Source: Sporohalobacter salinus (GTDB taxonomy: Bacteria > Bacillota > Halanaerobiia > Halobacteroidales > Acetohalobiaceae). Taken from it: a stretch of DNA of 64,000 nucleotides. The stretch lies in assembly GCF_016908635.1 (NCBI RefSeq), contig NZ_JAFBEG010000005.1, forward strand, positions 62,001 to 126,000. Reading direction: 5' to 3'. Made by a program: the position numbers and the translations under genes. Positions 15,170 to 19,436 of the stretch are shown piece by piece. Every line of letters begins with the position of its first letter. Position 1 is the stretch's first letter. Under the pieces are notes generated by a model. The model had not been told where the DNA came from. It saw only the letters and a list, made by a program, of their open reading frames with translations, and ran no database searches.

Positions 15170-17056
15170 TTAAGAATAGGAACCTTTTTTCACTTCTCCT
15201 TCTTCTATATAATACTGAACATTCGTAATCTTTTTACTAATCTTTTTCACTTCAGTCCCAATCATTAATTTAACTCCAGGGTGAATTGTATCCTGTACTT
15301 TAATTCTTCCTTTTTTCCTTGCTTCTAATTCTTCTTCTAAGCTTTCTTTTTCTTCTTTTAATTCTTCAACTTCCTTGGCAATTTGAAATCTAGCTCTAGT
15401 TCTTTGACTCATGATTTCTTGCTGTCGCTCCGTTAATTGACCATCAATTTCTTCCTTTTTTTCCTTAAGATATTTAATTATCTTAATTGCTTCTTCTAAT
15501 TTTCTCCTTTGATCTGTTAATTCATTTTTTAGCTGATTATAATTATCTCGTAATTCAGGAGTAACACCTACATATAACTCAGTCGTAGTCCCTAAATTAG
15601 ACCCTACTACTTTAACCTCTATTCCTTTTCCAGCTCTAACCATTCCTCCTACAATTAGTCCTTTATTTTCAACTTTAATTACTCCCGCGGCATCTATATC
15701 ACTATGCATAATTGCTTCAACAACTATTAAATCACTATTAGTAACTATTTTCCCGTTTTCTATAAATCTGACCTTAATATCTCCTTTAGCTCTAAGCTCT
15801 CCTTTACTTTTGCCTATAAATCCATTTTCAATTAAAATTTCTCCTCCAGCTTCTAATTCAGCAGCATGCACACTCCCTTCAACCTGAATATCATTTTTAG
15901 CCTCAACTTTCATTCCATCAATGACATCTCCTTTAACCACTACAGTACCAACAAAATCAATATTACCTGTTGATAGATCAACATCTCCTTGAACTGTATG
16001 GATTGGGACTACATCTACCTTATTACCTTGATATATTACTTGACCTTCAATCTCAGATTTTAATGTTAATCCATCAGGACTAAGTTCAGTATTTTTCCCA
16101 GCAGGTATCTGTCTATCCTCTGGAGATTCAGGTTCGATTTTTTCGCCAGTTACTTTTGTTCCTGGACTACCCGGTTGAGGTTTAGTCTTAGTTACTAATA
16201 TATCTCCAGGATCAACATTATTAATCTTATTTAAGTTAAGAAAATCAACATGTCCATTTTCTAATTCACGAACCTTCCTCTCTTTACTCTCAATATCAAA
16301 CTTAAAATTAAGTTCTGCCGGCTTACCTGGTGTTGGCTTTTCTCCTTCTGCAATCAAACATTCTTCAACTTCATGCTTTAATCCTTCATCTTCATCTACT
16401 AACTTCTTTAATTTAGTCTTCTTAATCCCAAAAGTAACTCCTGCCTCTTCTAAAGCAGATTCCAATAATTCTAAAGTTGCTTTTTTCCCTCCTAAAGAAG
16501 GTTGAGCTGATAAATAAGCTTCCATTTTATCATTATCAAATTTCACTTCTACTCCAGCATCTTGATCTAATTCTGGTCTTCTCTCGGCAATTTTTACTGC
16601 TTCATTATAAATATCTTCAGTTAAAATTTCACTAATCTTTTCATAATCCACTTTTTTGATGCCCTTTGCATCTATTAAATCTTCTATCTGAATAAGATTA
16701 ATATCTTTGCCATTCCCTTGGGGCGGAATTAAATTAAGAAAAATTCCATCTTCATTAACAATTAATTCAACTTTTCCATCCTGAGATTCTATTTCTTCCT
16801 TATCTTCACTTTCTTCATCAGCTTTACTACTTTTATCTATTTCCTCAGAATTAATTTCTTCATCAGCTTCAGGAATAGATATTTGAACCTGATAAACTTT
16901 TGTTGTTCCAAAACCTAAAATCCCCGACTTTTCCTCTAATAATTCTACATTAAGATCTAATTCATCTGTAGTATATATATCTTCTATCTCCAATTGTTCA
17001 ACAGCTTTCTTAATTGCTTCATCTTCATTATCAGCTTCTAATTTTATTTCCTTCAT
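15170..17056 (-). CDS. FapA (DUF342) family protein with Jag-like N-terminal domain
   Basis: About 628 residues. The first 60 (EADNEDEAIKKAVEQL, EKSGILGFGTTKVY) form a Jag_N-type domain as seen in the KhpB/Jag RNA-binding protein. The rest is the FapA core with a right-handed beta-helix of repeated GDI/GEI turns (about 340-480) and a coiled coil (about 500-575). FapA-like proteins are conserved in motile and sporulating Firmicutes, and their role is unclear. Two ATGs follow a run of seven G; the second (17056) is better spaced. Placed directly downstream of the sigma factor. Confidence 0.85.
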   Translation of the reverse strand: MKEIKLEADNEDEAIKKAVEQLEIEDIYTTDELDLNVELLEEKSGILGFGTTKVYQVQISIPEADEEINSEEIDKSSKADEESEDKEEIESQDGKVELIVNEDGIFLNLIPPQGNGKDINLIQIEDLIDAKGIKKVDYEKISEILTEDIYNEAVKIAERRPELDQDAGVEVKFDNDKMEAYLSAQPSLGGKKATLELLESALEEAGVTFGIKKTKLKKLVDEDEGLKHEVEECLIAEGEKPTPGKPAELNFKFDIESKERKVRELENGHVDFLNLNKINNVDPGDILVTKTKPQPGSPGTKVTGEKIEPESPEDRQIPAGKNTELSPDGLTLKSEIEGQVIYQGNKVDVVPIHTVQGDVDLSTGNIDFVGTVVVKGDVIDGMKVEAKNDIQVEGSVHAAELEAGGEILIENGFIGKSKGELRAKGDIKVRFIENGKIVTNSDLIVVEAIMHSDIDAAGVIKVENKGLIVGGMVRAGKGIEVKVVGSNLGTTTELYVGVTPELRDNYNQLKNELTDQRRKLEEAIKIIKYLKEKKEEIDGQLTERQQEIMSQRTRARFQIAKEVEELKEEKESLEEELEARKKGRIKVQDTIHPGVKLMIGTEVKKISKKITNVQYYIEEGEVKKGSYS

Positions 17057-17075
17057 CATCTCCCCCCCTTTTTTA

Positions 17076-17858
17076 TCATCCTAATAATTCATCTTTTTTT
17101 CTACTTAAATATCCTCTTAATCTATAGATAGCTTTAGTATGCAACTGAGAAATTCTAGCAGTTGTAACTTCTAGTACTTCACCAATTTCTGTTAAATTTA
17201 AACCCTCATAGTAATAAAGAGTAATTACTTTTTGTTCTTGTGGTTTTAATTTTTCAATTGTTTCCCCTAAAACCCTCTTTATTTCATCATATTTAAAGCT
17301 CTGTTCTGGAGTTTCAACATCTTCATCAGCAATTATTTCAATTAAAGTAACTCCATCTACTTGACGACTATTAATAAAACTATCTAAGGAGGTCGTCTGA
17401 GGAATATTGATTTCAGACATTAATTCACTATACTCATCATAATTCAAATCTAATTCTTCCCTTATTTCCTCATCAGTAGGAAATCTACCCAATTTATTTG
17501 CTAACTTAGAATTAATCTCTGATACTCGCTTTGCTTTTCGCCGAACTGTAGTCGGCACCCAATCTAATTTCCTTAACTGATCAATAATGCTACCTCTAAT
17601 TCGAGAAATAGCATAAGTAGAAAATTTCATCCCACGACGATGGTCAAAACGTTCTATAGCATCAATTAAACCAATAATTCCATAATTCTCTAAATCCTCA
17701 AATTCAAATTTATCAGGAAGATTAATAGCCACCCTATTAGCTACATATTTTACTAGAGGTATAAATCGAAACATCAACTCCTCTTTAGCTTGTTGATTAT
17801 TCTTCTCTTTATATTCAATCCATAACTTCTGCTTGGTTTTATCCTGTAACTCGGCTAT
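17076..17858 (-). CDS. fliA: Flagellar sigma factor (FliA/SigD/WhiG type), probable AUA start
   Basis: Sigma-28 family factor directing late flagellar and chemotaxis genes. Region 2 (FEFEDLENYGIIGLIDAIER, then FSTYAISRIRG), region 3 (WVPTTVRRKAKRV) and region 4 (YYYEGLNLTEIGEVLEVTTA) are intact. The first canonical starts (TTG 17777, ATG 17774) remove 27 residues that match the SigD N-terminus (KLWIEYKEKNN). The open frame continues to a stop just after the upstream gene and holds no ATG, GTG or TTG. ATA at 17858 lies six bases after GGGGGG, 16 bases past the upstream stop. With that start the protein has 260 residues, normal for the family. Confidence 0.9.
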   Translation of the reverse strand: MAELQDKTKQKLWIEYKEKNNQQAKEELMFRFIPLVKYVANRVAINLPDKFEFEDLENYGIIGLIDAIERFDHRRGMKFSTYAISRIRGSIIDQLRKLDWVPTTVRRKAKRVSEINSKLANKLGRFPTDEEIREELDLNYDEYSELMSEINIPQTTSLDSFINSRQVDGVTLIEIIADEDVETPEQSFKYDEIKRVLGETIEKLKPQEQKVITLYYYEGLNLTEIGEVLEVTTARISQLHTKAIYRLRGYLSRKKDELLG

Positions 17859-17874
17859 CTTTATCCCCCCTTAA

Positions 17875-18303
17875 TTATTCCTCCTGAATACTCTGTACCA
17901 TATTAGCTAATTTTTCTGGATCCTGTTTTGCTAAATCTTCAACTTCCTTTTGTTCATCATAATCTATTTCTTCTAAATCTAAAGGCTGAAACTCATCATT
18001 ATTTTGACTTTCATTCTCTTCTTGTTTTTTATCTTCAATCTCTTTCTGATTTTGAGCAGCATACTGTTGGACAGCAGTCTCTTTAGAAACAGAATTTATC
18101 TCATTCGATTGTCTATTCTTCGCTGTCATATTAGTAACTAAATAGCCAATCCCTGCACCTAACATTCCAAATAATAAACTAGATAATAAACTACGCTTAA
18201 GTATAATCATCAATGATAATCTGTTTGCTACTGTAATAATAGCAACTAACAGAAAAACAACTAAAGCAAAGATAATAGATAAACTCTTAGTTAAACCATC
18301 CAA
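17875..18303 (-). CDS. Unknown two-helix membrane protein with FliF-tail-like C-terminus
   Basis: About 142 residues from TTG 18303 (nine bases after AAAGGAG). Two hydrophobic segments (about 6-27 and 35-57) form a hairpin, followed by a K/Q/E/N-rich cytoplasmic stretch. The last 19 residues, LAKQDPEKLANMVQSIQEE, line up without gaps with the end of FliF in this window (LVEEQPEEVARLLKTWLSEE), the helix that binds the FliG N-terminal domain. It lies between cheD and the sigma gene, where Bacillus has no gene. Function unknown; a link to the MS-ring or C-ring is inference. Confidence 0.65.
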   Translation of the reverse strand: MDGLTKSLSIIFALVVFLLVAIITVANRLSLMIILKRSLLSSLLFGMLGAGIGYLVTNMTAKNRQSNEINSVSKETAVQQYAAQNQKEIEDKKQEENESQNNDEFQPLDLEEIDYDEQKEVEDLAKQDPEKLANMVQSIQEE

Positions 18304-18318
18304 CCTTGTCAACTCCTT

Positions 18319-18801
18319 TTATAAAACCTGATCTTCTCCTTTAACTGTCTTAATTAATGTCTTACCATCTTCTACATGAAATTCCATAGTCCGTCCGTAA
18401 TCTTTTCCTACATCCGAACCTAATAACCTTATATTTTTTGCCCGCAAAATTTCCTTAACAGCTTTAACATTACGAGCTCCAATCTTCATACTAGAATCAG
18501 AGTTATCAAAACTAAACATCTGAGCTCCACCAGCAATCTTAGCCTTTAATCGTCTAATCCTAGCCCCAGCTTTTTTCATTTCATCCAATAAAAGCTCTAT
18601 AGCAGTATCTGCATACTTAGCAGGATTACTGTTCTTTCGATTCCCAGGTACTTTAGGTAACATAACGTGTGCTAAACCACCAATTTGCGAACGCGAATCA
18701 TAAAGAGCCACTCCTACACATGAACCCAAGCCAGAAGTTATTAAAATATCACTTTTTTCCCCTACATCCAAATCAGCCATTTTTACTCTAATTTTGCTCA
18801 T
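18319..18801 (-). CDS. cheD: Chemoreceptor glutamine deamidase
   Basis: Deamidates glutamines on chemoreceptors and binds CheC to stimulate its phosphatase activity. The catalytic Cys is in GLGSCVGVALYD and the His in GGLAHVMLP; KIAGGAQMF, IGARNVKAVKEIL and GSDVGKDYGRT follow. 160 residues, typical. ATG overlaps the cheC stop (ATGA), so the two are translationally coupled and likely made in fixed ratio. No cheA, cheB, cheW or cheY is in the window, so the rest of the pathway must be elsewhere. Confidence 0.96.
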   Translation of the reverse strand: MSKIRVKMADLDVGEKSDILITSGLGSCVGVALYDSRSQIGGLAHVMLPKVPGNRKNSNPAKYADTAIELLLDEMKKAGARIRRLKAKIAGGAQMFSFDNSDSSMKIGARNVKAVKEILRAKNIRLLGSDVGKDYGRTMEFHVEDGKTLIKTVKGEDQVL

Positions 18802-19436
18802 ATCTGCCCCACTCCAAGCTTAGATAAAATCTTATTTAGAGACTCAGGAGTAGGAATAAAGAAAAAATTCCCCGAAATTCTATCTTCTCCATCCCAGAAT
18901 TCAGTCTCAACTACTAAAGCATAATCTCCAATATAACCTACTTGTAAAAAAGCAACTTCTAAAATTGCTCCTGCCATATCCAACGCTAAACCTGGAACTG
19001 AAGGTAGTGGAGATAAGTTAGTCATTCTGCTTAAAGCATTTAAATAAGAATTAGTCAATATATTCCCTAGCTCTTTTAAAGTAGATTTCTTAATTTTCTC
19101 ATCCTGTTTATCTACATTATTTAATCTTTTATCTAATAATAAACTAGTCATTCTATTAGCACTCTTTTCATCTAACGCAAATAAAATTTTCCCTGGAATA
19201 TCCCCCATTACTTCAACTAAAATCCCAACTACTAATGACTCAGGACCACCTAGAATCTCTGGTATTTCATTTAAAGGTTTAATATCTACTTTTGGTACAC
19301 TCATATCAATTCTCTGATCTAACATCTGTGAAAAAGCAGTAGCGGCATTCCCAGCTCCTATATTAGCTATCTCTTTTAAAGCATCTAACTGCAAATCAGA
19401 AAGTTCAGTTAAATCAGTACGTGATTCATCCTCCAT
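18798..19436 (-). CDS. cheC: CheY-P phosphatase CheC
   Basis: Dephosphorylates CheY-P and controls CheD. Two CheC signature helices are visible: ALKEIANIGAGNAATAF near residue 20 and STLKELGNILTNSYLNAL near 110, each with the E...N pair needed for phosphatase activity. 212 residues. ATG at 19436 follows GGAGG with a ten-base gap. A 100-base gap to the upstream PilZ gene holds no clear signal; in Bacillus cheBAW precede cheC, and they are missing here. Confidence 0.95.
   Translation of the reverse strand: MEDESRTDLTELSDLQLDALKEIANIGAGNAATAFSQMLDQRIDMSVPKVDIKPLNEIPEILGGPESLVVGILVEVMGDIPGKILFALDEKSANRMTSLLLDKRLNNVDKQDEKIKKSTLKELGNILTNSYLNALSRMTNLSPLPSVPGLALDMAGAILEVAFLQVGYIGDYALVVETEFWDGEDRISGNFFFIPTPESLNKILSKLGVGQI

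Follow-up and report, generated by a model that had tools for sequence, protein, structure and literature searches.

The Streptomyces gene sigR, which encodes a sigma factor, begins with GTC and is repressed by IF3, and changing this codon to ATG, GTG or TTG raises SigR above its anti-sigma factor; the same paper cites FliA/FlgM of E. coli as an example of an anti-sigma factor outnumbering its sigma factor (PMC5472188). In S. aureus, AUA starts of infC, ccpN and citZ were found by Ribo-Ret, non-canonical starts give about 10% of AUG expression, and reporters of ccpN and citZ reach about 10–30%, the ccpN AUA attaining as much as 30% in rich medium; ccpN has a non-canonical start in B. subtilis as well (PMC13009471). 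In vitro, strong third-base pairs are preferred by IF3 and weak ones are excluded (PMC10158994). Our literature search found no flagellar sigma factor with an AUA or other non-AUG start.

Here we analysed a stretch of 64,000 nucleotides from Sporohalobacter salinus, which belongs to a family of halophilic bacteria (contig NZ_JAFBEG010000005.1, positions 62,001 to 126,000; the window). A preliminary description had placed the start of its flagellar sigma factor gene, fliA/sigD, at ATA, a very rare initiation codon. We assign a probability of about 0.82 to the reading that this gene has a genuine, conserved AUA start behind a strong Shine-Dalgarno (SD) sequence, and that initiation there would be inefficient and IF3-dependent, keeping FliA below FlgM. 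The closest precedent is sigR (PMC5472188), which likewise encodes a sigma factor with an anti-sigma partner, combines a conserved non-canonical start with a very strong ribosome-binding site in one lineage, and has its start misplaced by gene callers. The two differ in function and codon (an oxidative-stress sigma factor with GTC versus flagellar sigma-28 with ATA) and in gene arrangement, as rsrA is co-transcribed with sigR whereas FlgM is encoded elsewhere; moreover, the sigR case is proven experimentally, whereas that of fliA is known from sequence. The S. aureus genes infC, ccpN and citZ resemble fliA in their AUA start and, for infC and ccpN, in an extended SD, and the lineage of fliA likewise has a non-AUG infC, but these three do not encode sigma factors and were detected by Ribo-Ret. 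The AUU start of infC, also present in the relatives studied here, shares with fliA a non-canonical third base and the expected policing by IF3, although it serves IF3 autoregulation and is widespread, whereas the AUA of fliA is confined to one family. Genes of the B. subtilis sigD type and fliA of the sister family agree with fliA in protein family, flagellar/chemotaxis neighbourhood and homologous start position, but have ATG (GTG once in the sister family) in place of ATA. With the present case, the sigR principle, in which IF3 acts on a non-canonical start to limit a sigma factor, would reach another sigma family and another phylum; this suggests that the choice of start codon is a recurrent means of keeping a sigma factor scarcer than its anti-sigma factor.

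Identity and initiation site of fliA

Read from the AUA, the coding sequence on the minus strand (17076..17858) comprises 260 codons and a stop. The 260-aa product matches the FliA/WhiG family model TIGR02479 with 265 bits (cut-off 189.6) and Pfam sigma-70 regions 2, 3 and 4, all above cut-off, while the WhiG equivalog NF004935 gives 289.9 bits, below its curated cut-off of 343 bits. Downstream on the same strand lies the gene for FapA/DUF342, flagellar assembly protein A (15170..17059), and the flagellar/chemotaxis gene run upstream contains cheD and cheC (18319..19436, minus strand), followed by PilZ/YcgR, a MinD-like ATPase (FlhG) and an FlhF-like GTPase, to 22217; these neighbours indicate that the gene encodes the flagellar sigma factor. 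FlgM scored above cut-off in 13 of 13 genomes searched, and flgM begins with a conserved ATG in those family genes that were read; in the Sporohalobacter salinus genome it is sited elsewhere, not beside fliA. By model match, flagellar/chemotaxis context and the presence of FlgM in the genome, the protein is a member of the FliA/SigD (sigma-28) group. Acetohalobium arabaticum has been described as motile with one to two flagella. Between cheD and fliA, an ORF for a probable membrane protein (17875..18312, minus strand) is kept in the family; it has a sub-threshold match to DUF4834, and its C-terminal region (QDPEKLA and similar) is conserved.

Translation of the minus strand from 17936 to 17076 showed the fliA frame to be open from a bounding in-frame TAA (17873–17871) 5' of the AUA to the stop at 17078–17076. 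The leader reads GGG GGG ATA AAG ATA GCC GAG TTA CAG GAT AAA ACC AAG CAG, continues with AAG TTA TGG ATT GAA TAT AAA GAG AAG AAT AAT CAA CAA and then reaches GCT AAA GAG GAG TTG (17777) ATG (17774). The putative initiation codon (17856..17858) is separated by a spacer of six bases, ATAAAG (17859..17864; RTMAAG across the family), from the SD AAGGGGGG (17865..17872), which in the relatives reads AAGGAGGG or close to it. TTG 17777 is the first in-frame ATG, GTG or TTG after the TAA, and in Sporohalobacter salinus the stretch that runs from −14 up to +35 relative to the ATA has no canonical start in any reading frame. The preliminary description was accurate in all these respects: the lack of ATG, GTG and TTG upstream of 17777/17774, the coordinates, the peptide and the ATA six bases after the run of G. 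It had also anticipated that gene callers would truncate the protein by 27 residues, and the mechanical ORF caller indeed gave 233 aa from TTG 17777 instead of 260 aa from the ATA; annotation limited to ATG, GTG and TTG cuts fliA short by these 27 residues here and misplaces the start in other members of the family.

SD duplex energies of the five family leaders ranged from −11.8 to −15.4 kcal/mol; the 56 long ORFs of the window, each taken at its best start, had a median of −11.1 kcal/mol, a generic anti-SD tail being used throughout. As for RNA structure around the start, no genome folded better than its shuffles (z from −0.05 to 1.24). The stop of the upstream ORF (TAA 17877–17875 in Sporohalobacter salinus) lies 15–34 nt 5' of the fliA AUA in all five genomes, and translational coupling to this ORF may help initiation.

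Conservation of the ATA codon

The family sample consisted of five genomes from four genera, including Acetohalobium, Fuchsiella and Ca. Frackibacter, with Sporohalobacter salinus as G000. All five carry GGRGGGRTMAAG-ATA at fliA, once per genome and at no other gene, in the variants GGGGGG ATAAAG ATA, GGAGGG ATCAAG ATA, GGAGGG ATAAAG ATA (twice) and GGAGGG GTAAAG ATA. The codon six bases 5' of the start thus varies (ATA, ATC or GTA), while the ATA at the start is invariant. Searching with the 15-base motif GGRGGGRTMAAGATA returned exactly one match per family genome, each at fliA, against zero for the reversed control pattern, which is beyond chance. The ATA stands exactly 12 codons ahead of the invariant Trp of the LW pair in 5/5 genomes. 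Of the eight sister-family orthologues, six show ATG or, once, GTG at this same position, and two show ATG one codon later, at 11 codons. The orthologue alignment proposed in the preliminary description thereby favours the ATA, the codon being homologous to the canonical start of most sister-family genes.

A broader comparison covered 110 FliA/WhiG-like loci, including distant actinobacterial and clostridial ones. An ATG, GTG or TTG before residue 28 was missing solely in the seven family entries (five genomes, two of them entered twice), and was present in every one of the other 103 loci. Viral contigs gave a single weak locus. The additional N-terminus, LWI..K....Q.AKE.L, is conserved in the family, colinear with FliA of the sister family, and aligned from query residue 10 onwards with solved FliA/WhiG-type sigma factors, bearing out the earlier proposal of colinearity with the SigD N-terminus. 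Codon usage sets the first position apart: among 14 invariant Ile columns, codon 1 is the sole position with ATA in 5/5 genomes; where another column is fully conserved, the codon is ATT, which is the common one for Ile. A sequencing error turning ATG into ATA is ruled out by the agreement of five separate assemblies, and with the upstream peptide conserved, neither of the observations named beforehand as speaking against the ATA was made. Considering that the five genomes share one ancestor, their agreement counts as one evolutionary event. The gene has the features of a conserved non-NTG start, as judged by sequence comparison: it lacks a canonical start, the ATA occupies the homologous position, and an SD lies at the proper spacing. 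What makes AUA very probable as the start codon of fliA is the conjunction of its position, the SD and the lack of any alternative.

Two other placements of the start were considered. Translation could begin at the internal TTG or ATG (17772..17777, minus strand), giving a 233-aa sigma factor with an upstream frame open by chance. These are the first canonical in-frame starts, and the matches to TIGR02479 and to Pfam region 2 begin only at residues 29–31, as this placement would have it; but the pair is not conserved, reading TTA ATC in G003, CTA ATC in G004, and TTA ATG or TTG ATA in other relatives, so that two of the five genomes have non-NTG codons there. Given also a conserved upstream peptide that is colinear with sister-family FliA and solved sigma factors, and an SD located at the ATA and not at the internal pair, we regard an internal start as scarcely credible. 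Alternatively, initiation could occur at one of the codons closer to the SD (AAG at −3; ATA, ATC or GTA at −6), at which the frame is also open, or out of frame with a frameshift from the upstream gene. The −3 and −6 codons would leave an SD spacing of only 0–3 bases, which is too short, and the −6 codon is variable; fusion with the upstream gene would require readthrough plus a frameshift, since in G000 both the in-frame stop and the stop of the upstream gene precede the SD. Within reach of the SD, the five genomes have no out-of-frame NTG in common. The sole canonical start near and downstream of the SD is an out-of-frame ATG at +16 in G003, apart from an ATG at +35 common to the family, which is part of the Leu-Trp codons (TTATGG or CTATGG) and in Sporohalobacter salinus opens a frame of two codons. 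This second placement is accordingly very improbable.

Initiation machinery and expected yield from AUA

IF3 was found in 15 of 15 genomes searched, with normal family scores. Its own gene would be begun by a non-AUG codon: in 14 genomes of the same order or nearby families, an SD of AGGAGG or similar form precedes an ATT at infC, and in an outgroup genome (family f3) AATATCGTTAAT shows an ATC/ATT-like codon after the SD, the exact start being less clear. Initiator tRNA genes (GGG-CTCATAA-CCC) are present in 5/5 family genomes, with a CAT anticodon according to ARAGORN in the genomes scanned. An altered initiator tRNA with a UAU anticodon was considered and rejected: the single GGGCTTATAACCC match, in G001, coincides with no tRNA by ARAGORN and is a chance match.

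We propose that fMet-tRNA initiates fliA at the AUA, placed by the strong SD six bases upstream, and that the AUA would have replaced an ancestral AUG before the family diverged and been retained since. Because the third base of the CAU:AUA pairing is a C-A mismatch, which IF3 discriminates against, initiation would be several-fold weaker than at AUG and would track free IF3 and the growth state. It is quite likely that AUA is markedly weaker than AUG at fliA, and the AUA probably holds the flagellar sigma factor at a low level. Of the earlier interpretation, the AUA start is upheld by the orthologue comparison, while the inefficiency and IF3 sensitivity of translation at this gene are properties that we infer. 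The likely use of such weakness would be dose limitation, keeping FliA below the anti-sigma factor FlgM, which has a normal AUG, and so preventing spurious switching-on of late flagellar genes. We consider the odds that this dose-limiting role was selected to be about even. Some of the weakness of the codon may be made good by the strong SD, flgM does not adjoin fliA in the way rsrA adjoins sigR, and the AUA may have arisen by drift of the initiation context, with no regulatory purpose.

If the AUA is real but neutral, it would not limit the dose: FliA would be made in sufficient amount thanks to the strong SD and to coupling with the upstream gene, and the codon would have been fixed by drift. 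The strong SD energies, the closely preceding upstream stop in 5/5 genomes and the lack of unusual RNA structure agree with this view. Retention of the A is likewise modest evidence of selection, as at invariant Lys, Glu and Gln columns, where the third base has no start-codon role, an A is kept in all five genomes at 5 of 27 positions, so that its persistence without selection is only modestly improbable. Against neutrality, a single A-to-G transition would restore AUG, yet none of the five lineages, with protein divergence up to about 30%, has kept one, and AUA reporters in S. aureus reach about one-tenth of AUG expression (PMC13009471). On balance, neutral fixation is possible but rather unlikely. 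The AUA might also be an ordinary start in a lineage with a relaxed start code, owing to altered IF3 or initiator tRNA. About seven genes with an SD and a non-NTG candidate start in 800 kb of G001, and a CcpN-type ATT conserved in both families (both described below), would be in keeping with such relaxation; however, 874 ORFs yielded no more than these few candidates, and in the sequence read no clear AUA start other than that of fliA came up. Normal IF3 scores and a CAT initiator tRNA make a general relaxed code unlikely, and we give this explanation little credence.

Other candidate non-canonical starts in the order

The scan for an SD followed by a non-NTG codon with a coding-like extension covered the first 800 kb of G001, approximately one-third of the genome. 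Hits were obtained with ATT, ATC, CTG and ATA (the last at infC, one codon off), and none with the control codons AAG, AGG and ACG in the same 800 kb. A pattern search of the Sporohalobacter salinus genome with GGAGG-N6-ATTCTG yielded nothing useful. In 12 genomes, drawn from both families, a CcpN-type (HTH) repressor (G001:C1:746366 and orthologues) shows ATT without exception behind an SD of GGAGGG or similar form. An AI-2E-type permease (G001:C1:451417 and orthologues) has an invariant CTG in 5/5 family genomes and in several of the sister family, with an in-frame stop two codons 5' of the CTG in all five, which points to a probable conserved CUG start. The names CcpN-type and AI-2E-type are putative and reflect our reading of the sequences. 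In a substrate-binding lipoprotein (G001:C1:475552 and orthologues), ATT (as ATT ATT or ATT ATC) follows the SD in four genomes, and in these no NTG is found at the start of the signal peptide. Misannotation of the kind expected for fliA probably affects several more genes of the order.

More tentatively, the fliA AUA could be a selected regulatory device in which entry into the late flagellar programme is gated by start-codon fidelity, that is, by the IF3 level and the growth state, jointly with a small lineage-specific set of genes with conserved non-NTG starts responding to IF3 that would comprise the AUU starts of infC, the CcpN-type repressor and the lipoprotein and the CUG start of the AI-2E-type permease; we consider this doubtful.

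In G001, ORFs at C1:411541–411733 and 490489–491854 were flagged as further candidates, with an SD and ATT and no NTG nearby. A short conserved protein (G001:C1:25304, G000:C26:10843) has ATT at its likely start in the genus; in part of the sister-family orthologues an ATG stands one or two codons further upstream.
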